Source: Acorus gramineus
Taxonomy: Eukaryota; Streptophyta; Magnoliopsida; Acorales; Acoraceae
Reading direction: 5' to 3'
Assembly: GCA_030737835.1 (NCBI GenBank)
Contig: CM060855.1
Span: 17,417,278 to 17,481,277 of the forward strand
DNA length: 64,000 nt
The notes beneath the pieces are model-generated. The model saw nothing but the letters and a program-made list of their open reading frames with translations, had not been told where the DNA came from and made no database searches. This document shows positions 1-25,859 of this stretch, one piece after another; within the stretch, counting starts at the first letter, position 1; each line of letters starts with the position of its first letter. The position numbers and the translations under genes are program-made.

Positions 1-702
1 TCGTTGTCTAGGATATATTATTGTATGTATATGTTCTCATTTCGATCTGTATACTTTAGAAATGAAACAAATTTTCTTTTTGTGTTTATCTTTTTAAGTT
101 ATTATATAATTTGAGTTCAGATGTGATGGAAATTTGTGGTCCTATTCTTACTGATCTCTGTATCATAATTCTTTTATGTTGTCCTTATGTGATGTTCTTT
201 AATTTTTTAAATGCATGCCAGATAAAACATTTATGCATTATAATCATTGAAAAGATATGCATAAATTACTTTGCTTTTTATATCCTTTCTATTTCCTGGA
301 AAACCTTTTTTTCTGTCAAAATTGTAGTTTGGATATTATTTTGCACTAATATCTTTTTGTGCTTTTCAAGCCTTGATAATTATACATCTCTCTCTCTTTG
401 TCTCTCTCTCGTGATTAGATTCCTTGTTGGATCCTTATGAATTTTTTTACTCATGCCATGAAGCTTATTTTCTTTTCTTCCATTCCATGTTGGAATTGAA
501 GTAGTGTCATGTCCCCTTTGTTTTCACATTTTTGCATCTCTTTTTAATGTATAATGGTTTTGTATTTTCCGTATTAATGTATATTGATTTTGTTTTTCTA
601 AAATTTGAAGTTGATCTAATGCAGCATGTTGTAGAACTTTATTGCATTTGTTTGTTTATGATAAATAGAATTTAATGTAATTTTGAATATATTTTTGCAC
701 AG
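1..702. other. AT-rich left margin, probably intron or upstream of the PMD gene
   Basis: No convincing coding exon is visible. There is a short CT/TC microsatellite around 389-411. The stretch ends in a pyrimidine-rich tract and an AG at 701-702, which serves as acceptor for the first visible PMD exon. It is therefore read as the intron before that exon; the gene's true first exon probably lies left of the window. Confidence 0.5.
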
Positions 703-2403
703 GAGCGTTCCGTGTTGAGATGTCGACAGCCTGTTACCCAATTGGATAGTTGGAGTTTGGATGACGAGTCCATTGAATTCATGAATATAATCAGGGGGAG
801 TGGTCTCCTACCATTGGTTCAATGGAGCTTCAAAACAGTAAATTGTCATTTAATTTCTGCAATGGTTGAGAGGTGGCACCCAGAAACAAACACATTCCAT
901 CTACCATTCGGGGAAATGGGCATCTCCTTGGACGATGTAGATCAGATCGTAGGTATTCCAGTAATGGGTCGTGCAGTGTCCAAGCCAGTCATTATAAAGA
1001 CAGAAGAAGTTGTGAAATTAGTTCACAGAGCACTTCACCTCAATCCCACTGACATTTCTGTTGAATTGGAAACATTCAATGGAAGATCAGTCAGATTGTC
1101 TTGGCTGAAGGACAATCTGGCTAAGAAGACCAGTTCAATGCCCACGCATAGCATTGAGTGTGCTGTTCGAGGATATCTCTTATATCTATTGGGTTGCACC
1201 ATTTTTGCTGATAAGACTGGCACATATGTCTCTGTGGAGTATCTTCAGTATCTTGAGGATCTAGACAAGGTAAAGGAATATGCTTGGGGCGCAGCTACTT
1301 TAGTTCACTTGTATCGTCAACTCGGGATGGCATCAAGGGCAAAGTGCAAATCAATTTCTGGTTACCTCACTTTAATTCAGGTATTATTAACTTATATCTT
1401 AAATTTCTATAACAACATTATATTAACATAAATGATCATTTGCGTAATTGATTTCATGAATATAGGCATGGGTGTACGAACACTTTCCTGTTCTCAGGCC
1501 AGGAGATGAGATTCGTGTACAGGGAATTGCCTCGAATGGCTCTATGGAAGGACTGTAGAAATAATCCTGGATTGCAGAAGAACAACGTTGTTCTCATAAG
1601 GGAAATGTTTGATTCATTGGAAGCAGAACAGGTATTATATTTTATTGTAAATGCAAAATAAAAGTGGGTAGTTATTATTTCTTTAACTTCCCCAATTTTA
1701 TACATTTCGTAGATTGATTTCAATCCATACCTGCCCACACGTGATCGTTCTCCATTACAAGATTTTGCGTTCTTCAAAGGTTGTCTGGTCGCCAATAGGA
1801 TTTCTGAGCCATATATGCCAGATAGATACCTCCGACAGCTTGGTCATGTCCAATCCATCCCAGGAGAGCCGATTCAACCCATTGGAAAGACAAGAAGATC
1901 ACGCTTAGCTAGCAGTTACCGAGTGACATATGGAAGTAATGTCACTCAAATGGAGCAGTGGGAGGACGTACTTTTAGGTCTGAGAACAAGAGGCCACCAG
2001 AATATCAAGCAATGGGACACAGTGTCAAATTATATGGGGTGGTTCAGAAGAGTTAGCCACCCTTCTATATCAAAGCCAGAGAGTAGAAAATTTTTTAGGT
2101 ATAGTGGGAATTTGGGTTCTACCACACCACAAGAGGATTGGGTAAGTATGATTCTCATTTATAAATAAATGATAAAATCTAATAGCTTTATTAACGCATT
2201 AATGTTTCTTTCTTGTGTAGCGAACTCATATATCACAATACTTGCAACCACTCGCACAAGGTCGACATACAGCGAATGTTTGGCAAAGGCACATGCAAAA
2301 TGTATTGGATTATTGTCAAGACAATGTACCACTTCCGTCGTCGTCAGGTCCCCCAAAGTCACCGACTAGAGATCGTCGTTCTAAGAGGTTGAACGACAAT
2401 TGA
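703..2403 (+). CDS. Plant mobile domain (PMD) protein, MAIN-like, 5'-partial, with a probable frameshift
   Basis: Four exons can be read: 703-1380, 1466-1631, 1713-2141 and 2221-2403, all with GT-AG borders and a TGA stop at 2401-2403. The first visible exon follows an AG acceptor and opens with ERSVLRCRQPV, so the start codon is probably upstream and outside the window. Family marks are LDSWSLDDESIEFMNIIRGSG, then HLPFGEMGISLDDV (the aminotransferase-like PMD core), then AWVYEHFPVLRPGDE and later VTQMEQWEDVL. These are typical of plant-mobile-domain proteins (MAIN/MAIL1 and transposon-borne relatives), a family tied to silencing and to MULEs. Exon 2 is 166 nt where neighbours need a multiple of three. 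The frame reading AWVYEHFPVLRPGDE must shift to reach RFVYRELPRMALWKDC, which points to an indel near 1505-1515. The C-terminus is basic (SPTRDRRSKRLNDN). The gene faces the MULE-OTU gene. The family call is firm; integrity is doubtful. Confidence 0.8.
1505..1520 (+). other. Frameshift site in PMD exon 2
   Basis: The sequence reads GGAGATGAGATTCGTG. The upstream frame gives PGDEIRV and soon hits a stop; the downstream frame gives RFVYRELPRM. A tandem GATGA (PGDEMRFVY) would restore the frame, so loss of one 5-bp GATGA unit by slippage is the simplest explanation. A sequencing error is the other possibility. Confidence 0.55.
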
Positions 2404-2560
2404 TATATAATTGGAGCTTATAGATTCAACAAATCATTTTGCTTTTTCATCGATTTGTTGAAATGGATGTTTATTTAAGTAACAACAATGAACAAATCAG
2501 TTGTGTATTATATGGTTTTTGTAGGATCACTTGTTCAAAGTGAATAACTATCTTAGATTA

Positions 2561-2812
2561 AACAGTGTGGATGTTTATTTGAATGGTGGTATCTATGGTT
2601 TTGAATGCAAGTATCTTATTAAAAACAGTGTGGATGTTTATTTGAATGGTGGTATTGATGGTTTTGAATGCAAGTATTTTACTTTAAACAGTGTGGATGT
2701 TTATTTGAATGGTGGTATTGATGGTTTTGGATGCAAGTATCTTACTTTAAACAGTGGACTTGTTTATTTGAATGGTGGTATCGATGGTTTCCATTGCAAG
2801 TATATCATTGAT
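2561..2812 (+). repeat. 63-bp tandem repeat, four copies
   Basis: Units start at about 2561, 2624, 2687 and 2750, each opening AACAGTGTGGATGTTTATTT or a close variant. The unit length is a multiple of three, so an open frame of 21-residue repeats (core VDVYLNGG) runs through 2531-2845. It lies just after the PMD stop, has no splice link to it and shows no other coding sign, so it is treated as a minisatellite. It merges on the right into the ~90-bp palindrome array. Confidence 0.85.
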
Positions 2813-4250
2813 TTTTCTGTTTCCATCGACTTGAGTATTGTCTAGGAAGTTTAAAAAGTTAGACACTGAATATGTCTAACCCATTTCAGAAAGTATGTCA
2901 TTGATTTTTCTATTTCCATCGACTTGCGTATTGTCTAGGAAACATAAAAACTTAGACACTGAATATGTCAAACCCATTCCAGAACCTATGGCATATTTTT
3001 CTGTTTCCATCGACTTGAGTATTGTCTAGGAAGTTTAAAAAGTTAGACACTGAATATGTCTAACCCATTCCAGAAAGTATGTCATTGATTTTTCTGTTTC
3101 CATCGACTTGCGTTGTCTAGGAAAGTTTAAAACTTAGACACTGAATATGTCTAACCCATTCCAGAACCTATGGATTATTTTTCTGTTTCCATAGACAAAA
3201 GCATTGTCTAGAAAAAAACTTAGACACTGAATATGTCTAACCCATTCCAGAACCTATGGAATTTTTCTGTTTTCATAGACAATATTGTCTAGAAATTTAA
3301 ACTTAGACACTAAATATGTCTAACCCATTCCAGAACCTATGGAATATTTTTCTGTTTCCATAGACAGAACCATTGTCTAGTAAAGTTCTAAACTTAGACA
3401 CTGAATATGTCTAATCCATTCCAGAACCTATGGATTATTTTTCTGTTTTCATAGACAAAATAATTGTCTATAATATTTGAAAACTTAGACATTATATATG
3501 TCTAACCGGTTCCAGAACCTATAGATTCTTTTTCTGTTTCTATAGACAAAATATTTGTCTAGGATATTTGCAAAATTAGACACTGAATATGTCTAACTCA
3601 TTCCAGAACCTATGAATTATTTTTCTGTTTCTATAGACATCAGAATTGTCTAGTAAATTTGTAAATTTAGACACGAAATATGTCTAACCCATTCCAGAAC
3701 CTATGGATTGATTCTTCTGTTTTCTTAGACAGAATCATTGTCTAAAAAATGTGAAAACATAGACAGTTAATATGTCTAACCCATTCCAGAACCAATAGAT
3801 TATTTTTCAGTTTCCATAGACATAAATATTGTCTAGTAAATGTGACATATTAGACATTTCGTATGTCTAACCCATTCCAGAATGTGATGGATTATTTTTC
3901 TGTTTTCATAGACATAAAAATTGTCTAGTGTATCCACCAAACATAGACAACGCGTATGTCTAACCCATTCCAGAACCTATGGATTTATTTTTCTGTTTCT
4001 GTAGACAGGATGATTGTCTAAAATATGTAACAACCTAGACATTGTGTTTGTCTAACCCATTCCAGAACCTATGGATTTTCATACTTTTTCCATCGACAAT
4101 CATAGTGTATATCTTTTAATAATTCATAGACAGTATGGGTGTCTAACTCATTCCAGAACCTATGGATTAATTCTTCTGTTCTCCTCGACATAAGGGATGT
4201 CTAGTAAATATTATACGTGTAGACATTCAGTGTGTCTACACGTCCAGAAA
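2813..4250. repeat. Array of ~16 units of ~90 bp, each with two TAGACA-N7-TGTCTA palindromes
   Basis: Each unit contains CCATTCCAGAACCTATGGAT, a T-rich stretch (TTTTTCTGTTTCCA), palindrome 1 (TAGACA-N7-TGTCTA), about 10-15 variable bases, and palindrome 2 (again TAGACA-N7-TGTCTA). The hexamer arms and the 7-nt spacing stay fixed while spacer bases change from unit to unit; palindrome 2 spacers include CTGAATA, TTATATA, CGAAATA, TTTCGTA, ACGCGTA and TTGTGTT. One palindrome 1 has a 4-nt spacer. The first four units have a diverged left arm (TCGACT) in palindrome 1. Centres alternate at roughly 34 and 57 bp. The array lies between the 3' ends of the convergent PMD and MULE-OTU genes. The pattern suits a protein-binding array, possibly for the transposase, but that is inference. 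Confidence 0.9.
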
Positions 4251-4572
4251 TATAGGTTTGTGTGTCTTTAGAGATAACTTTTTCTTTCATTAATGCAATG
4301 GAGTCAATGTCAAATTCCCACCATAATATAACATCAAACACAAATTCCCAAACTTTCTACTATAAGATATTCAGAACAGTGGGCAGACCTTACCCACCTA
4401 TTACATACAAAATGAACACTTTCTAATTTGGAGCTAACCTACCTATTACATACAAAATGAATGACTGTTGTCATATACAAAAGATATACAGCTCCACAAT
4501 ATAAACACAAACATCTCTATGTAAGACTTAACAAAAATACGGTCTTACACAAAATGTGATGGTTTTTTGTAG
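4251..4572 (-). other. 3' flank of the MULE-OTU gene
   Basis: AT-rich sequence between the palindrome array and the MULE stop codon, probably 3' untranslated region on the minus strand. It contains a small direct repeat, ACCTATTACATACAAAATGAA, near 4398 and again near 4439. No coding frame is seen. Confidence 0.5.
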
Positions 4573-7484
4573 CTAAACAAGGTCCACGACGTCGACCAAA
4601 GCAACATTGCTACCAGCTAGACTTCTGAATACCTCCATTCGACTGATGTACGGCGTCACCCAAGAGCTCGCGCTGTCCAAATGGAATCTTTCCCAAGTCG
4701 TTGTAACTGGAGGTAAAGGAGCATCCGGAGTTAACTCCAAACCTTGAAAATGGCAGCCTCCAACATAACCAATACATAGGATCCGGTGTGAAGATGCAGG
4801 AGGTGGAGGATCTCTTATTGGAAAAAAAGTCAAACATTGATTCATAGATATGAGTACAACTACAATTTTGTAATATGATGAGATGACATAACCCATTTCG
4901 GGCATTGTCATCCAGTGCTCCCTGCCTGCAATTGAAGTTTGACATCGTAGACTCCTCTTTACCTCCTCTACACGGTCCAACCCATAGAACACTAAGTTGT
5001 ATTCATCTGGGTGTTGCTCAATCTCCAAAAGAAGATCATTCCTGACATCACGCCAACCTTCATTCGACATCCCCAGAAATGCAGCAACCACTCGATACCC
5101 GCAGTGGCCATCTCCGGGTACGTCACGAATGTCAACTATAAAAGGAGACAAGAAATCTGGAAATTCATTCTTATATTTATTGCACCCGATGAACCGATGA
5201 CAAAGAAGTCTTGATCGTTGCACATCTATCTTGGATTGCTTAGTAAGTGGTCGATTCTTCATTTGCGAGTGTGCAGGAGGAAACGCTTCTGAAGCAATGG
5301 ATCTCTCAACTGATTGAAGAACATATTCAAAACCACTTGGATTTCTCTTGGTTGACTCCTCTTCGATGGCCTTAGCCCTTTTCTTTCCATTTTTCTTACG
5401 GCCCCTAGTGTTCACTTTGACAGTGGGCTCTAATAAGAGTGTCGCAGCCGGGTCACTCAACTTTTTTAGACTTTTTTTTATTTCCTTTCTTTGGACCATA
5501 TTCCCAGTTGTGAACCGTTTCATGAGTAGTTCAATCTCTGGCGCAATATCAACCACATCGGAATAGTCTTCAATGAATGGAGTCATACAGAGTTTACGCC
5601 AAAATGGATGGATGACCGATAGAGGAATTGGACAACTCTTATGCCTGTATTCAGCAATCTTGTGTGCACATGGTAGACCACAAGTTGTATGGATCACATG
5701 GTTGCATATATTATTGTTCGGACCAACCCCATCACTAGCATGCACCTCATGCTCGATCTTTTGAAGGGCGTATATGGAAACCACACCAATGAGATCCTGA
5801 AACAGGAAGCCTCGATACTTATGGGGAATCTTCGTAAGGCTCTCCTCGAGCGAGGCACGAATGTCAGAAATCTGTAACTCCAACAAGTTGTGAATTGTCT
5901 GCCATGAATTTACAAAATTCTGAATAGATGTGCCCAAATACTTCTTTAGCTTTGCATGATGACCCTCAACACGATTAGTGGTACTGTTATCGAGGTGCAT
6001 GTGTCTATTAGTCCATGCAGACACAAATCTTTCTTTATGCTTGTCCAACCACGTGGCCCGAATGTAGGAGATAACATGTGGATAATTTTCAAACTCATTT
6101 GCAAAAAAAGTCAATTTTCTTGTGTAATCTTCTTCGCTTGAAGCCCTCATCACTTGGGACCATGCATCCATAAAGTTTTTCCATGCTTCTTCGGAGAATG
6201 CTTTTTTGCAATTTTTCACAATGTTCTTCTCAATATGCCAACGACATAAGAAATTCATAGTGTTTGGAAAGACTACAGAAATAGCCTTCATCAGTCCGAG
6301 CTCGTGGTCAGTGATTATGACCTTTGGAGGGGGGGATTCATCAAAAAGTGTTTTGAAGCACTCCAACGCCCATGCGAAGTTATCTTCTTTCTCCGCTCTC
6401 AAGTATACAAAGGCGGCAGCAAACGTCTTCCCAGTCGATGTGATTCCAACTATTTCGAGGAGGGGCAATCTATATCGGTTTGTCTTGTAAGTGCAATCCA
6501 TTATAAAGACAAGCGGAAATGCTCTAATAAGCTGTATGGATGTAGGATGAGCAAAAAAAATGTCAGACACCACCTCACCCTCTGCCTCCATTCGATGTCG
6601 CTCAATATACCCATGCTCGTATATCAACTTCATCAGTTGTTGCATGTTTGTACGACCACAAGTTTCTTGAATACGCAACTTCGTCCGTGCATTATATATG
6701 TTTCTTATTGAGCTAACATTAGTAGGATCTCGACTCTTCAAGTGGGTTAGGATGTCCCGAGGACGCATGCCACTCACAGACATGCCTTGTAATACAGAAT
6801 ACTCTTCGTCTAGCAATTTTCCAGCATATGAATGACCCTCAAAATCCTGGATGAGGGGGTGATTGTGTATACCACAAATGACTCTTGAAAACCATTTCCC
6901 AGAATTTTCAATTGCCCTCAATTTAAATGGACACCCACATTTTTTTGATCCGGTTTGACGCTTCACTATGATTTTTTTGTCTACAAATCTGATCCTTGGT
7001 CGCGTGTCAAACTTGCCCCCTCTTTCACATATTAAATCAACGCGTGCTGGCCTACGATGACTTGTAACTTCTGAGCGGCCAATCACCACAATCACCCCAA
7101 CATTCCTGCCGATTCTCTTCATCCAATCGATTAATTCCGTTCGATTATCAAACCCCTAAAAAAAAAAGAAGATGATCGTTAGTGTCTTTACCCTAAAGAC
7201 TGTATATGTACATTTGAGGAGAATATGAGACTACATAATTAAATGACACAAATTACCATAGATGTTGTGAAAGGTTCCGTGGTGTCTACATTGGGATTAG
7301 CCTCGGCCGGGATGACCTCTTTGATGGGGATACTCTCCTCCTCCCCCGGAATGTAATCATCTACATTTAAATTTAATTGTACTATTGACCTCTGCACATA
7401 TAATACACATATTAACATATAAATATTTCATCAAATATATGTAACTATACATTTAGAAGCACAAAGACTGACCTCACTGCTCAT
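4573..7484 (-). CDS. Mutator-like transposase with C-terminal OTU cysteine-protease domain
   Basis: Three coding exons on the minus strand: 7484-7473 (MSSE), 7391-7257 (45 codons, acidic, includes DDYIPGEEES) and 7155-4573. All junctions are GT-AG in phase 0, giving 909 aa. Order of domains: FAR1/GCM-like zinc region (about residues 121-150, KKCGCPFKLRA ... GIHNHPL); MULE transposase core with DDE candidates D269 (MDCTYKTN), D332 (ITDHELGL) and E446 (RVEGHH), plus the CRWHIEKN motif; SWIM-like zinc finger at about 533-547 (CNHVIHTTCGLPCAH, with His or Cys481-equivalent in place of the usual second Cys); basic linker (GRKKNGKKRAK); and an OTU domain at about 725-865 with DVPGDGHCGYR (Asp/Cys pair) and the His in GGCHFQGLEL. 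The DDE core would act on DNA in the nucleus. OTU enzymes cleave ubiquitin-like modifiers; its role in plant MULEs is unclear. No stop or frameshift is seen. A domesticated FAR1-like regulator cannot be excluded. Confidence 0.9.
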
Positions 7485-8214
7485 TCCTATATAGTTGAAG
7501 ATATTTGAAAAAAAACTTTCTGATGCTACCAAATCGAATGGAATACCTATAACAATATTGAGTTAGTAAACATAGTAATTTATGCTAATAAAAACAACAA
7601 TGATGAAAATCAAACAAATATATACTTTAAAAAACCAAACGGTCACCACCATCCCCCAAATCATCACCAACAATACATACCACAACTAACCCTAGAAGAA
7701 CCCACAACTTTGTTCATCACCACAAAGTCACAATTCTCACCAACACCACCAACAACAAGCACACTTTGAAATGTATCACAACGATAAACAAAACAAATTT
7801 TAAAAAAATTACCATTATGAACAATAAACCCTAAATATACCAACACTACATCAATCAATACAATAACCATGATCAATGCCACCTGACAAACACAAGAAAA
7901 AAAAGAAGAAGCAAAGATTCAAAAGAAGAATGGATTATCACCTTTTTTGGAGTGAAATCTTTTCTTTGAGCTAAGGCATCATAAACTAACTCAATGAAGA
8001 TGACGATCGTTGCCGGAGTGTCGTTGGAGGTGGAACAAACGGTGAGTCTCAGCTGATTATTGAGAAAACCGGGCGCAATTGCCGCACAAGGTGGTATGAA
8101 CGCGAGAAGAGAGAAAGGGCGGGTAAGGATTATGTGTGTTTTGATTTGGGTAGTGGGCTTGTCCAAGCTAAATTGATAGGGTGGTGGCAGATAGAAGGTG
8201 GTGCTCTTAATCAT
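7485..8214 (-). promoter_or_regulatory. 5' leader and promoter region of the MULE-OTU gene
   Basis: The coding start exon extends upstream as leader to about 7546, after an AG acceptor. A donor (AAG|GTGATA) at 7941/7940 suggests a further leader exon from about 8200 to 7942. That exon is open (residues such as TPATIVIFIELVYDALAQRK), but its phase does not match the next exon, so I treat it as untranslated. No TATA box was fixed. Confidence 0.4.
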
Positions 8215-8315
8215 TATTTTTTAGAAATGTTTGAATACCTTTGGTTAGAGGAGGTGGTGCCTAAAGTATCTTAGGTGGTGGCAATATCTTTGCCCAAAGT
8301 GAAAATTACCCTTAA
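8215..8315. mobile_element. Possible right terminus of the MULE
   Basis: Read on the minus strand from about 8315, the sequence contains GGGTAATTTTCACTTTGGGC followed by GATATTGCCACCACC and more GGTGG/CCACC motifs. Many plant DNA elements begin with GGG and an A/T run, and MuDR-type promoters lie next to the termini. The matching left end would be outside the window, so no inverted repeat or target duplication can be shown. Confidence 0.25.
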
Positions 8316-9541: not shown

Positions 9542-9593
9542 ATGGGGATTTCACTATCTCAGAAGGGGTTGTATTGGTGCTGTTCTTCAACAG
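9542..9593 (+). pseudogene. Exon 1 of the P-loop kinase gene (transit peptide start)
   Basis: The ATG at 9542 opens MGISLSQKGLYWCCSSTG with a donor at 9594 (ACAG|GTATT), phase 1. It splices in frame to exon 2 (12513-12637 or its copy at 15770-15894), which continues LSNPKRKRHVNIRC. The joined N-terminus is rich in Ser, Arg and Lys and lacks acids, as in plastid transit peptides. Only the last ~22 bases of this exon were carried into the second copy of the 3.7-kb duplication, so there is one ATG for the whole locus. Confidence 0.6.
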
Positions 9594-10085
9594 GTATTAA
9601 AAACACGTACAATTTTTTCTTCTTTATATTTATTTTTTCATTTCATGTCTGACATAAAACCATTCTAGCATCGATTATTGGTGTTGTTATTGTTATATGT
9701 TTTTTTCTTTTTTTCTTTTTTGATGGTTTGTGTGAAACCATAAAAAAAAAAAAAAAATTGAATCTTTTTGTATTTGAAGGTGATCTCGTTCAATAATTCA
9801 CTCACAATATGAACATATTTGGGTGGATGGTGCTTCTGTTCGTCAACTTAAATCTCCACTCACATTCGTGTTAGGGATTAGAAAACTAGATCTTTCTTTC
9901 TCGTTTGTTGACTTAGCGAAACTAAGAATATTTCATCCCATAGTTGCATTCAATGTCAACCCATTGTTTATAGAAACCCAAAAAATGGATCAGGTTTGAA
10001 TGAAACAAAGGTAAAAAGGAAGAGAAGCAATTGTGAAAAGTCAGGTATTGCTTACCCCATTTTTTTTAAAATTTAGCATTATTTT

Positions 10086-20522: not shown

Positions 20523-21049
20523 TGTCACGCCCCAGGGCGGCCGTCCCCGGGACGCGGCAGGTGTATATATCATATCAGAAACCTACACATGAGGTCAAAT
20601 ACATATACTCCAAACAACAGATAAAAATGACAACACAGATCAAACATGGCTGACATAATATATACACATATAGCGGAAGCTAATAACTGAGACTGTAATT
20701 CAAAACACATTACAGACTCGATACAAAATCAAATGTCCTGTGAGAGCCAATATACACGAATATATCCAAATATATACAACACGTGCCCAAGCACGGAAAT
20801 ACAATACATACTCAAGAAGGGATGCTGATAGCCTCTAACACTCGCGGGATGTAGCGCTGCTCCGCTACTGAAGAAATCCCTCGGGGAGCTCCTCTAGATC
20901 CGACTCGGATGGCACTGGAGAAAAATATGCGAGGGGTGAGCCACACGCTCAGTGAACAGCACAACCCATGCATCACGATATATTAACCACCAGATATTAT
21001 TAACATTAATCCACAGTCACATTATTAGAAGCCACAAAATGGCAACAAC

Positions 21050-21232
21050 TAAACAATCCAGTGGGTCGCTATCGCCAACCCACTACACGCTCACCCTCAC
21101 CCTTCAATGGGTGACAAAGGATATCGGGACTGACTAATCCTCCATACACAAAACCAGTGGGTCGCTCATCGCCAACCCACTACACCCTCACCCTCACCCT
21201 CACCGGGTGACATAGGCTCTTGGGACTGACTA
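21050..21232 (+). repeat. Internal tandem duplication in the LTR
   Basis: CCAGTGGGTCGCT-ATCGCCAACCCACTAC followed by CTCACCCTCACC and GGGACTGACTA occurs twice, from about 21058 and from about 21153. Noncoding. Confidence 0.8.
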
Positions 21233-21559
21233 GGCTGTTGGTCTCCCTTGGTCCACCGATAGTCTCTCCCCACTCCGTAGGTCGTTTGGCCACTCCCACA
21301 TTCAGCACAGTCCATCTACCAAATCAAGAGGTGCCTACTGATGGGAGGCCCTGCGCAGGACGACCTTTCTAACGCCGAGGTAGTCTCTACACGGATCCAA
21401 TGAAGGGAACAGAACAGCCTATCCATACGCATATGATCCACTCGGATCTGCCGACTACACATCTCTACAACTCTAATGCCATGAATTCCTCAGAATTCCT
21501 CCAGGGCGCATAACCAAGATGCGGGGAACACGTACCATAATTAGCAAGGTTGGAATATC

Positions 21560-21870
21560 ATTGGGGGAAAGAAACTTGGGAGGGCAGCGTGAGTTCCCGA
21601 TATAGGACACCCCGACAACCAAACAAAGAACACGGAGTACCCTAGCACGGGTCTCACCGCTGTCCTCGCAAGGCCCCTCCCCTACAATATTCACTAAATA
21701 AGCTAATATTCATACAACTGGTATAATCATTACTTATAATATTATTGGGACTAGAAACCTTGGGAGGGCAGCATGAGGTCCCGATACAGGACATCCCGAC
21801 AACCAAACAAGGAACACGGAGTACCCTAACACGGGTCTCAATGTTGACCTCACAAGGCTCCTCCTTATAA
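21560..21870 (+). repeat. Second internal duplication in the LTR (~190-bp period)
   Basis: CTTGGGAGGGCAGCGTGAG, then CCCGATATAGGACACC, CAACCAAACAAAGAACACGG and CACGGGTCTCA appear near 21569-21680. They recur with small changes near 21759-21870. Noncoding. Confidence 0.8.
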
Positions 21871-22169
21871 TATTATCTAAGGCATGCAATTTATCATACA
21901 CTAGCATTTAATTTAATAAATAAACTAGTAGGACGCATGCATAGGCCGAGGTTTCCTAGCATGAAAACAGGGGGCATGATGCATGGCTCTTACACATATC
22001 CTAAGGGTGTAAGTCCCTAACATGCAAAGTCTAGGGTAGCATGCATTCTACATTTAAATCATGTTCGCATCCAATACACCTTACAATAGGTTAATATAAA
22101 TCCATGGTGCCCCAGGAGAGGTCGGTATACGCCCAAGTGCGTATAACGCCTCTCTACTCGGTTGGATTG

Positions 22170-23270
22170 TCCCACTCACCGGTATCTGGGTCGTCGCGCG
22201 ACCGTCCGTCCAGATCTGCAAGACAGGCATTCAATACGGTGAGTACAAATACATAAATACACCAAAAATACTCTAAAATACCCAACACTCGGACAAACGT
22301 ACATACGGCACGTACGCACGCGTATCCGAGCGTCCCGACTCACTCCATAACCCACCGGGCAGCCGCACGCACGGCCACCCGCCTCGGGCGCACAGTCGAA
22401 CCCCGGCCCGCGCGCCAAGGTGCCCGGCCGAACCCAGTCCGCACTCCCGGACAGCCTGCCGAGCATCTGCCCGCAAGCCCGGACACACCGCACGCCCGGG
22501 CGCACGCACGCGCACCGCACGCCCGCGCGCACCGCGCGTCCAGCCCCGGGTGCACCCGCGTGCACTGCGCCCCAGCGCAGCACCCACCCGCACACCTGCC
22601 CGCACTACGCCCCAGCGCAGCGCCCAGCACTCCCTGCCGGATTCCCGCGTGCACTGCGCCCCACGCGCAGCACCCGCGCACGCCCTGCCCGCACGGCGCC
22701 CAGCGCTCAGCGCCCAGCGCCCGGGGCCCTCGCCCAGCCTCCGCGACCCAGTGCCCAGCGCCCAGCACCCGGGACCATCACCCAGCACCCACGCGCACGC
22801 CCGCGCAGCACGCGCCTGGCAGCACGCGCCCAGCGCGCTTGCCAGCCTGTCCGTGCAGCACGCTCGCGCTGCCTGCCTGCGCGCATCGCCGAGTGGCCCG
22901 AGCACCGCTCGCCAGCCTGCCCGGCACTGTCCGCCTGATGCCCGAGCACCCCCTGCCCTGCTCGCACAGCCCGAAGCCATCCTACCCGAGCTAGACCTCC
23001 CCCTGCCTACCCAGCGCGCCCAGCACGCTCAGCAACCCAACCCCAGCGCACGCCCGCGCGCACGTCCGCGCGCATGCGCGCGCGCGCCCGGCCACCAGCG
23101 GCCCACGCTGCCATCCCTCCCGGGACAGCCGACCATCCTGCCCGGGACTGCCCAACACCCAACCCGAGCAACTAACCTCCACCACCGGCCACCCCAAGGC
23201 CTCCGACCACCACCACAGCCTTCCGACGGCCACCCACCGCCGCCGACCGCCTTCCAACCTCAAATCTACC
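22170..23270. repeat. GC- and CpG-rich low-complexity block
   Basis: Dense short repeats such as GCGCCCAGC, GCCCGCACTGCGCCCC and runs of CGCGCG. Frames stay open on several strands because stop codons are rare at this composition. No conserved motif is seen in any frame. Confidence 0.85.
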
Positions 23271-25859
23271 CTCCTAACATACATCTAAGCCAAAAAGGAG
23301 AGGAAAAAGGGCTTACCAAGGAGAGGAAGGGAAGTCCGGATGCTCTCCGCGCCCCGAAACCTTTCCCCAAAGGCCTCCAACGCCCGGATCTATCTTGGCC
23401 CTCGAAATGGCCCAAAACAGAGGAGAAGAGAGGGGAGATGGAGGGGTTAAACTTGCCGGAATCCGGATTTGAAAGCACCGGGGTGTAGATCGGGACCCGA
23501 TCTACACTTCCTATGCTTTAGGTTTTAAGCTTTGGGGACTCTAGGGGGCTCAAAAGCTTGAAAAGGAGAGAGGGGAGAGAGAAAATCAAGTTGGGGGAGA
23601 AGATGAATAGTGCCAACCCCTTTTCTCACCCCACTTATAAAGTCAACCCACTTAAAAACCCACATACGCCCCGGAACTGCGAAATTTCGGAAATGTTACC
23701 GGAATTCGACAAAACTTTCGTGAGAGGCCTAAAATGGCATCAGGACACCAAATATGCAGTTATATTTTCAATCGGAGTCCTCTAGCTCAGGACGATAGCT
23801 AACAGTCCAAAAATTTAACGGTTCCGATCGAAAACCGGAAAAACCGAAAAACTGTCAGAATGCTCTAACGGTTACCAGCATGCTTAAAAGTGACACATAT
23901 ATAACAGTTGGCATATGTATGGTTTTTATAATGCACCATTGAAGGCATGTAGTTTAGAACCTTATGAAAGTTTTGGTTTGTGTCATCATGATCTCCTCCT
24001 TCTTTTGAATGTTTATTGATATCGAGATAAATAAAGCGATGCAACGGGTTTTGAAAAGACATATATCAACAGGTCAGTTTGTTTGCTCCAATGTCCAAAG
24101 AAAAAAGTCCACTTCACTCTCTTCTCATTTCTACTTGATATTTATGACAGGAAAAACACCAGATATTGCTTCATGGCGGGTAAGTTCCTCATCCTCTCAC
24201 TCTCTCTCTTTCTCATGAGCAACATTATATATTATTTTTAGGATAGAAATATTAATATTTTCAAATTGGGACCCCTTACTTCCTGATTATCGTCTTAGAT
24301 GTGGGCCTTGCATTGAATGACCAACAGTGACCTCTTGATCAAGCTTGTCGATGGATTGAATTCGAATGGATATGCCCATATCCAAATCTGCACCTGAATT
24401 AGTTACTGATTATCCAGATCCGTATTCAAATGAAATATTTGGTATCAAACTAATTAAAATCATTATTTATAATTTATTGCTATCAAATAGTAAAAAAATA
24501 TTACCAAGCAAAAAAAAATAAAAAATATTTATTATAAATATATCCCAATTTGTGAATACGTATCTGAATCCATTCAGATGTAACATATGATATCTGAATC
24601 TTTATCCAAATCTGAAGTTCGGATAATTCTTTGGATAATTGACAGGATCAATCTTGATGTTGGTTCCTGGTTGCATGAAGTTCTGCATATTGCTTATTGT
24701 ATGTTTCCTGACCTCGCAACCAATCTTGGCCAAGGACTTCATGGCGGGCCCCTTGGTTACCCACTAAACTAGCTTGAGGAATTTAATATCACATATAAAA
24801 ATCTTAAATGTAGGGCCGACAATTAATTATGAAATCTTTATGTTCTCTATTTACAGGCACACCAGTAGACATTGTTTAGGAATTTAAATATACATGTTTT
24901 TGCAATCAAATGTGACTGTTTGCTTCTTTTTTGGGGCTGTTAGTTGAGATGCTAGAATTGAATATGCAGCTCCACCTTGGGCTATTGTCAGAGGCTTGAG
25001 TCATTTCACAGAGACATCTTTGGAATGGTAGCCAATTTCAAAGTTGAATTTGTTCTTTTGGAATATCGGTCCTTTTATACTCATTTAATTTGCTTTCCTT
25101 TCTTATAAGTCAAACAAAAAAAAATGCTTTCCTTTCTCTATTTTTTTTATTCCTTTCTATCATCACTTAAGTCCCATGCCATAGGTTCGATCCTGTCAAA
25201 TCTGTCCCAATTTGTTATCGAGCTAAGGATACAAAATATATCAGACCGATTTTTGGATGAAAAAGTACCATGTTAAATCCTCGATTTTTTCCCCCTCTTC
25301 CTGTATACCAATCCTTTATGTACAATATTTGAATTAATAGAATGCCCTTTCAAGATGATTGTTCAAGATAGTTGTTCCTTGATTTTTATTTCATTTCTCT
25401 GATATAACATGTCACCCTTAAAATTTTTTGGGATTTTGTTACTCATTGTATTATCATTATTGCTTCTTTAATTTCCTTTTTAATCTTCTGGTCTTCCCGG
25501 TGCTAAATTCATATATTTTCTTGGTGCTTCAATCCCATTTTATGTTGAATATAACGACCGCCCAAACGCCGAATTTATCATGACATCAAAGAAGAATGCC
25601 GACCTTGTGATAAGGTCAGTAGATTTGTTGATCGTGTTAGTTTATTTAAGCTATTTAAGATTGTGAATTAAGAATAAGGTAATAAAGGAGAGGCAGCCAT
25701 GGAGATAACATTCTGGTTTCACTTATGCCCGTCTATTTACTTGTCCAATGATCAGTCTACCAAGAGTTTATTAAACTATTTGGTTCACCAATGAATTCAT
25801 ATCCATATTCATTATTTGGTTGGCCCAGGAAAAATGATATGAGAATTTGATTTAAAATA

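Follow-up and report, generated by a model that had tools for sequence, protein, structure and literature searches.

What reads an array of about thirty short palindromes that lies between the 3' ends of two transposon-type genes? The question is raised by a window of 64,000 nucleotides from Acorus gramineus (contig CM060855.1, positions 17,417,278 to 17,481,277; coordinates without a prefix are those of this window), in which one of the two genes encodes the transposase of a Mutator-like element (MULE) and the other a PMD protein. We describe here the sites and their constraint, the anatomy of the element, the conserved order transposase-array-PMD, half-sites that are specific to each family, and a PMD fold predicted to match that of VANC21. 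From these we infer binding of the PMD protein to the sites as a dimer, and consider it probable that the array acts in cis, as the target of the PMD protein that the element itself encodes, with an anti-silencing outcome.

Palindromic sites and their constraint

2813..4250, unstranded: main array of 16 units, each about 91 bp long, with TAGACA-N7-TGTCTA palindromes and near variants
2549..2803, unstranded: side array, four units of 63 bp with TAAACA-N7-TGTTTA

An earlier note on this DNA had claimed about 30 TAGACA-N7-TGTCTA palindromes with fixed arms, free spacers and centres alternating at ~34 and ~57 bp, and had suggested selection for a dimeric DNA-binding site. The number holds: 31 palindromic sites lie at 2826-4238 across the 16 units, of which 24 are exact, six carry one or two arm mismatches, and one (at 3276) has exact arms around a spacer of 4 nt; in unit u04 the second site alone is recognisable. 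A scan allowing up to two mismatches gave 33 matches in the window (30 within the array and three immediately upstream of it), whereas 100 shuffles gave 3.15 on average and never more than 12. The step between adjacent sites alternates between 34-35 bp and 57-59 bp, except around units 4-6, where shorter steps of 28, 29 and 55 bp and a single step of 91 bp are found.

When all 16 units were aligned, the mean column diversity of the arms was 0.085 in site A and 0.010 in site B, versus 0.521 and 0.423, respectively, in the spacers, and that of the backbone was intermediate (0.291). Arms are thus less diverse than spacers (p = 2.5e-7) and than the backbone (p = 1.0e-7), these p values being indicative since columns and units are not independent. 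The contrast of arms and spacers is strong, far from equal rates, and supports the suggested selection, as do the varied spacers across the genome and the shared geometry of related elements described below; the picture of fixed arms, however, applies with two reservations. Five edge sites (2826, 2919, 3010, 4093 and 4185) have TCGAC in the left arm, and parts of the backbone, around CCATTCCAGAACC and TTCTG, are also well conserved. TTCTG is a second conserved motif, which, read from the transposase side, stands 15 bp ahead of the next site in 15 of its 19 occurrences; this placement is weaker in two sister arrays (L029 and L030).

Because the edge units retain the TCGAC left arm, the sequence suggests that TCGACA is ancestral and that TAGACA later swept the middle of the array. 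Turnover is also seen at the left edge, where units u01-u03 are near-identical, as would be expected if the palindromes had simply been amplified and homogenised by unequal exchange, with no reader at all. We give this explanation almost no credence, since the diversity of spacers is at least about five times that of arms within the same unit, spacers are varied genome-wide, and the geometry is retained between families whose backbone consensus is the same at fewer than half of the positions. The side array has the geometry of the main array with a symmetric change in both arms. CG dinucleotides are depleted at 2800-4260 (15 versus 37 expected), and their scarcity (TAGACA contains none and TCGACA one) is possibly linked to methylation.

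The array is part of a Mutator-like element

1..8295 within the window, unstranded: MULE, 10,913 bp in total, with its left end at L005:7383, 2617 bp upstream of the window
8274..8295, minus strand: right terminal inverted repeat (TIR), from comparison of end type with gene-less copies
8296..8304, unstranded: right copy of the target-site duplication AAAGTGAAA
4573..7155, minus strand: MULE transposase gene, 860 open codons, PF10551 at E 4.4e-23

The end type GGGNNGNGATAYTCCCACCACC was first recognised in gene-less copies on contig C1, and ends of such type enclose the window array. They are 22 bp long (GGGCAGAGATACTCCCACCACC and GGGCAAAGATATTGCCACCACC, matching at 19 of 22 positions), and the 9-bp target-site duplication AAAGTGAAA flanks both. 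Because these ends and this duplication enclose the array, it belongs to the transposon, which is a MULE by its transposase domain and by a duplication within the expected 8-11 bp. Self-comparison of 20 kb upstream and 25 kb of the window revealed no long TIRs around the array, and no end of the window type was found within 1.4 kb ahead of the transposase start in three sister families. A 3.4-kb inverted repeat with 89.5% identity (20523-23906, and 9.6-13 kb upstream of the window, with further pieces nearby) flanks the region and is another repeat family.

Genome-wide sites and gene-less copies

TAGACA-N7-TGTCTA occurs 1142 times in the genome versus 59 for its reversed control, TCGACA-N7-TGTCGA 1488 times versus 4, and TGGACA-N7-TGTCCA 140 times versus 12; the number of distinct spacers among the first 50 listed sites was 35, 45 and 17, respectively. 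For TGGACA-N7-TGTCCA, 40 of the 50 listed spacers differ from ATCAAAT, or from its complement, by at most two bases (e.g. G000:C1:581969), and these sites are probably another hairpin-bearing repeat family. Exact arm pairs at spacings of 0-20 on C1 loci stand at N7 in 56 of 58 cases, the loci themselves having been selected with N7.

The earlier note had held that an ordinary, gene-free satellite would speak against a functional site. Arrays do occur genome-wide, and in 18 of the 19 site-holding C1 stretches (10 kb each) neither the transposase nor PMD was matched at E 1e-4, the exception, L023, holding a PMD fragment; stretches of this length would miss genes beyond about 5 kb, and three of them (L009-L011) are near copies of each other. 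However, a scan for element ends, defined as GGG...CCC pairs flanked by a 9-bp duplication with at most one mismatch, was positive for the window array and for the arrays of six of the 19 stretches (L007 with one mismatch, L012, L021, L022, L023 and L025). It found no ends in the other 13, one of which (L020) shows a 10-bp duplication by eye, leaving 12 of 19 without ends found. Because target duplications bound the six stretches, plus L020, the gene-less stretches with ends look like MULE copies rather than satellite, and these copies retain the array. Satellite DNA in the sense of long blocks independent of a transposon was rejected, as the arrays are short and lie within target-duplicated elements in the window and in six of the 19 stretches.

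Three further observations concern these copies. A 1614-bp element (L021:4570-6183) has different TIRs, GGGTCCGGCTATTTGCATCCCT, and the duplication TTTTTCATT, with TAGACA palindromes present; L024:3062-6494 and L025:4669-8149 are 97.6% identical gene-less copies of about 3.5 kb with two arrays each; and L009, L010 and L011 (G000:C1:4470800-4500799) are neighbours, 96-98% identical over kilobases, representing a local tandem duplication with TAGACA arrays.

Sister families share the geometry and change the half-sites

The transposase was found at 53 genomic loci (56 matches merged). Since the copies on C5, C8, C97 and C11 are 99-100% identical, with no stops within the match, they point to a recently active transposon. 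A convergent PMD match lies within 16 kb downstream of the transposase at 47 of the 53 loci (at 2.7-4.5 kb in 30 of those) and on its 5' side at none of the 53; these counts use 113 of the 152 PMD matches (mostly those of at most 39% identity being omitted, and some unlisted), and the omitted matches could shift both figures slightly.

The 3' flanks of 10 of the 52 other loci were read, chosen non-randomly for a spread of identity from 100 to 63%, so that with the window arrays were read at 11 of the 53 loci. Palindromes were found in the corresponding interval of nine of the ten; L036 (63% identity, six stops) had none in its 3' interval. GAC-N9-GTC occurs 29 times in the window, 5 in L027, 19 in L028, 12 in L029, 21 in L031, 26 in L032, 29 in L033, 29 in L034 and 12 in L035, versus shuffle means of at most 0.84 and maxima of at most 4 (200 shuffles each). 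L030 has no GAC-N9-GTC and 25 of the N8 form, the shuffles covering N9 only; N8 arrangements number 10 in L033 and 8 in L034, and L028 has GAC-N28-GTC 20 times versus 19 at N9. L027, with a 100% identical transposase, has six sites within the 3 kb read; because its match to the window then stops and its PMD is 9.5 kb distant, an insertion may interrupt its array.

The base outside GAC is A in 53 of the 58 half-sites of the window, C in L028 (35 of 38), L029 (22 of 24), L030 (48 of 50), L032 (41 of 52), L033 (51 of 58) and L034 (48 of 58), and T in L031 (36 of 42) and L035 (22 of 24), in tables that are conditioned on GAC/GTC and informative for the flanks alone. Half-sites of related elements thus fall into the classes TAGAC, TCGAC and GTGAC. 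Steps of 33-35 bp nevertheless recur in all nine arrays compared, as do steps of 54-58 bp (once only in L035), although between families of different class the backbone consensus is the same at only 22-46% of positions (L030 left out); within a class agreement is higher (L031-L035 54%, L032-L034 74-87%). Geometry that is kept while sequence changes is difficult to account for unless a protein reads the sites as paired dimers.

Such a reader might be a host factor. In auxin-response nomenclature the window site is an ER7, an everted repeat of TGTC with a 7-bp spacer, by which an auxin response factor (ARF) could drive the element: the TGTC core is present in 55 of the 58 window half-sites, ARF dimers bind TGTCNN repeats, and everted motifs are recognised in vitro at spacings that are specific to the family (PMC10690724). 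However, an invariant TGTC core is absent from L030 and L031, where the inner base next to GAC is not fixed (T 27, C 20, G 2 and A 1 in L030; A 20, T 12, C 9 and G 1 in L031), so that TGTC is not the conserved core. Outer bases that diverge from family to family would not be favoured by a shared host factor, and functional in vivo everted sites were not known to the same review; we therefore regard an ARF as a very unlikely reader.

The position between two 3' ends, with PMD convergent at 47 of 53 loci, might also indicate a terminator or insulator, its palindromes acting as RNA hairpins or being read by a chromatin protein. This appears highly improbable: six-base arms would make weak hairpins, the sequence conserved beyond pairing and the family-specific outer bases point to protein reading, and the array is kept in copies that have no genes to separate.

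The PMD protein and the transposase

L005 about 9554-9893: likely upstream PMD exon, from open frames
676..1431, plus strand: first part of the PMD domain (PF10536), open frame, Pfam E 1.7e-45
1452..1659, plus strand: probable further PMD exon, frame resembling relatives P0002 and P0004 by eye
1713..2168, plus strand: later part of the PMD domain, PF10536 at E 4.8e-7, under the curated cut-off
2221..2401, plus strand: possible last PMD exon with a basic C-terminus, from its frame and resemblance to P0002 by eye

The placement of the array between the 3' ends of two transposon-type genes, given in the earlier note, is confirmed by these exons and by the transposase. The PMD gene runs on the plus strand in several exons, in a gene model that is approximate, and its relative P0001, also of A. 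gramineus, is 99% identical across 62% of the query. A structure model of the protein, built on this gene model, has a predicted fold that matches VANC21 (9lnj, which from its title line we take to be the VANC21 crystal entry), and PDB sequence-profile searches with PMD retrieved no VANC. The DUF1985 match of the window PMD is weak (E 2.1e-4, 21.7 bits versus a cut-off of 35.1); DUF1985 is found at E 0.01 or better in 15 of 51 PMD relatives. The alignments covered 50 of the 57 relatives.

The transposase carries an N-terminal FAR1-type zinc-finger region (FAR1 E 0.0026, below the cut-off). The earlier label MULE-OTU stands for its MULE part: the C-terminal 229 residues had no Pfam match, and a PDB sequence search with the C-terminal part gave matches only at E 0.53-0.89, presumably to OTU-type proteases, so that this part is at most weakly OTU-like.

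The zinc finger, of FAR1/WRKY-GCM1-like type, offers another candidate reader, in which case the array would serve synapsis, excision or self-regulation of transposition. The W-box TTGAC resembles the half-site core GAC, and retention of the array in gene-less copies is what a transposase site would show; subterminal repeats are found in other MULEs (Muta1, PMC5225508). However, families share 68-81% identity in the zinc-finger region, even where their half-sites differ, and in the full element the array has an internal position, whereas the ends bear other repeats (CACCACC). We consider a transposase reader unlikely, and the PMD protein remains the reader that we favour.

Comparison with known systems

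The remark in the earlier note that such an array was not known as described is half right. No published description of site arrays in PMD-MULEs was found in the open-licence literature, but the VANDAL/VANC system of Arabidopsis MULEs is a close described parallel. In VANDAL21, VANC21 binds 9-mers clustered in non-coding sequence and reduces methylation both there and further out (Hosaka 2017, PMC5735166), and related VANDALs have other motifs, which evolve via tandem repeats (PMC5735166; PMC10398659). In both systems a MULE encodes a second protein that is more variable than the transposase, short motifs are densely repeated in tandem in non-coding parts (here in nine of ten sister copies read), and the motif changes between related elements (PMC5735166, PMC10398659); the predicted fold of the window PMD adds to the likeness. 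However, the VANC 9-mers share one orientation, whereas the Acorus sites are palindromic, paired and fixed in spacing; VANDALs are non-TIR elements, with TIRs absent or else short and degenerate, unlike this one with its 22-bp TIRs; and the second protein is PMD, with a sub-threshold DUF1985 score. The VANC21 and VANC6 motifs, YAGTATTAY and AGTTGT[CA]C, were not enriched, with 0 and 2 matches, respectively, when both strands of the entire element were scanned. For these reasons the Acorus system is VANC-like, matching in logic and predicted fold, and is not classed as VANDAL.

MULEs that encode PMD have been described, with an anti-silencing use guessed by the authors, in grasses and Amborella as fusions to the transposase (Ikeda 2017, PMC5418596); the Acorus MULE likewise encodes PMD, but in a gene of its own that is convergent with the transposase and accompanied by a site array. 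A 2021 review (PMC8616336) repeats the guess and treats PMD as a domain of unknown function. Muta1 of Aedes also retains short tandem repeats in non-autonomous copies, but its repeats are 9-15 bp long and lie inside the TIRs (PMC5225508), unlike the internal 91-bp units found here. The PMD proteins MAIN and MAIL1, which have links to the silencing of transposons and to the DNA motif DOWN, are host genes, unlike the Acorus transposon PMD, and the authors did not settle whether the MAIN/MAIL1/PP7L complex binds the motif directly (Nicolau 2020, PMC7156037).

Proposed mechanism and meaning

A PMD dimer would recognise two xGAC half-sites that face away from the centre across 9 bp (TAGACA-N7-TGTCTA here), and dimers would be placed in pairs, 34 bp apart. 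The protein would occupy the array between the convergent genes, much as VANC21 occupies its own motif arrays, and once bound would remove silencing marks at the array and beyond, leading to expression and mobility of the element and of its gene-less derivatives. Tandem turnover would let a new half-site sweep an array, and families would diverge in specificity alongside the fast-changing PMD protein.

More tentatively, and with slightly less than even confidence, PMD may be a sequence-specific DNA-binding fold common with VANC. PMD-MULEs would then constitute an anti-silencing system of their own, perhaps of greater age and wider distribution, in which paired dimers read palindromic GAC-N9-GTC arrays and each family sets its half-site specificity anew. 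MAIN and MAIL1 would likewise read DNA through this fold, and a single domain would serve both sides of the arms race.

In short, the palindrome array of PMD-MULEs is, in the sequences compared, a general architecture of transposase, array and PMD with a family-specific motif. The locus offers a fold prediction, a precisely defined candidate target and several variants of specificity that occur naturally; these bear on the function of PMD, on the anti-silencing guess for transposon PMD proteins and on DNA binding by MAIN/MAIL1/PP7L. If the reading is true, sequence-specific anti-silencing would extend beyond the VANDALs of Brassicaceae, and the PMD family would be a source of new sequence-directed epigenome-editing tools.
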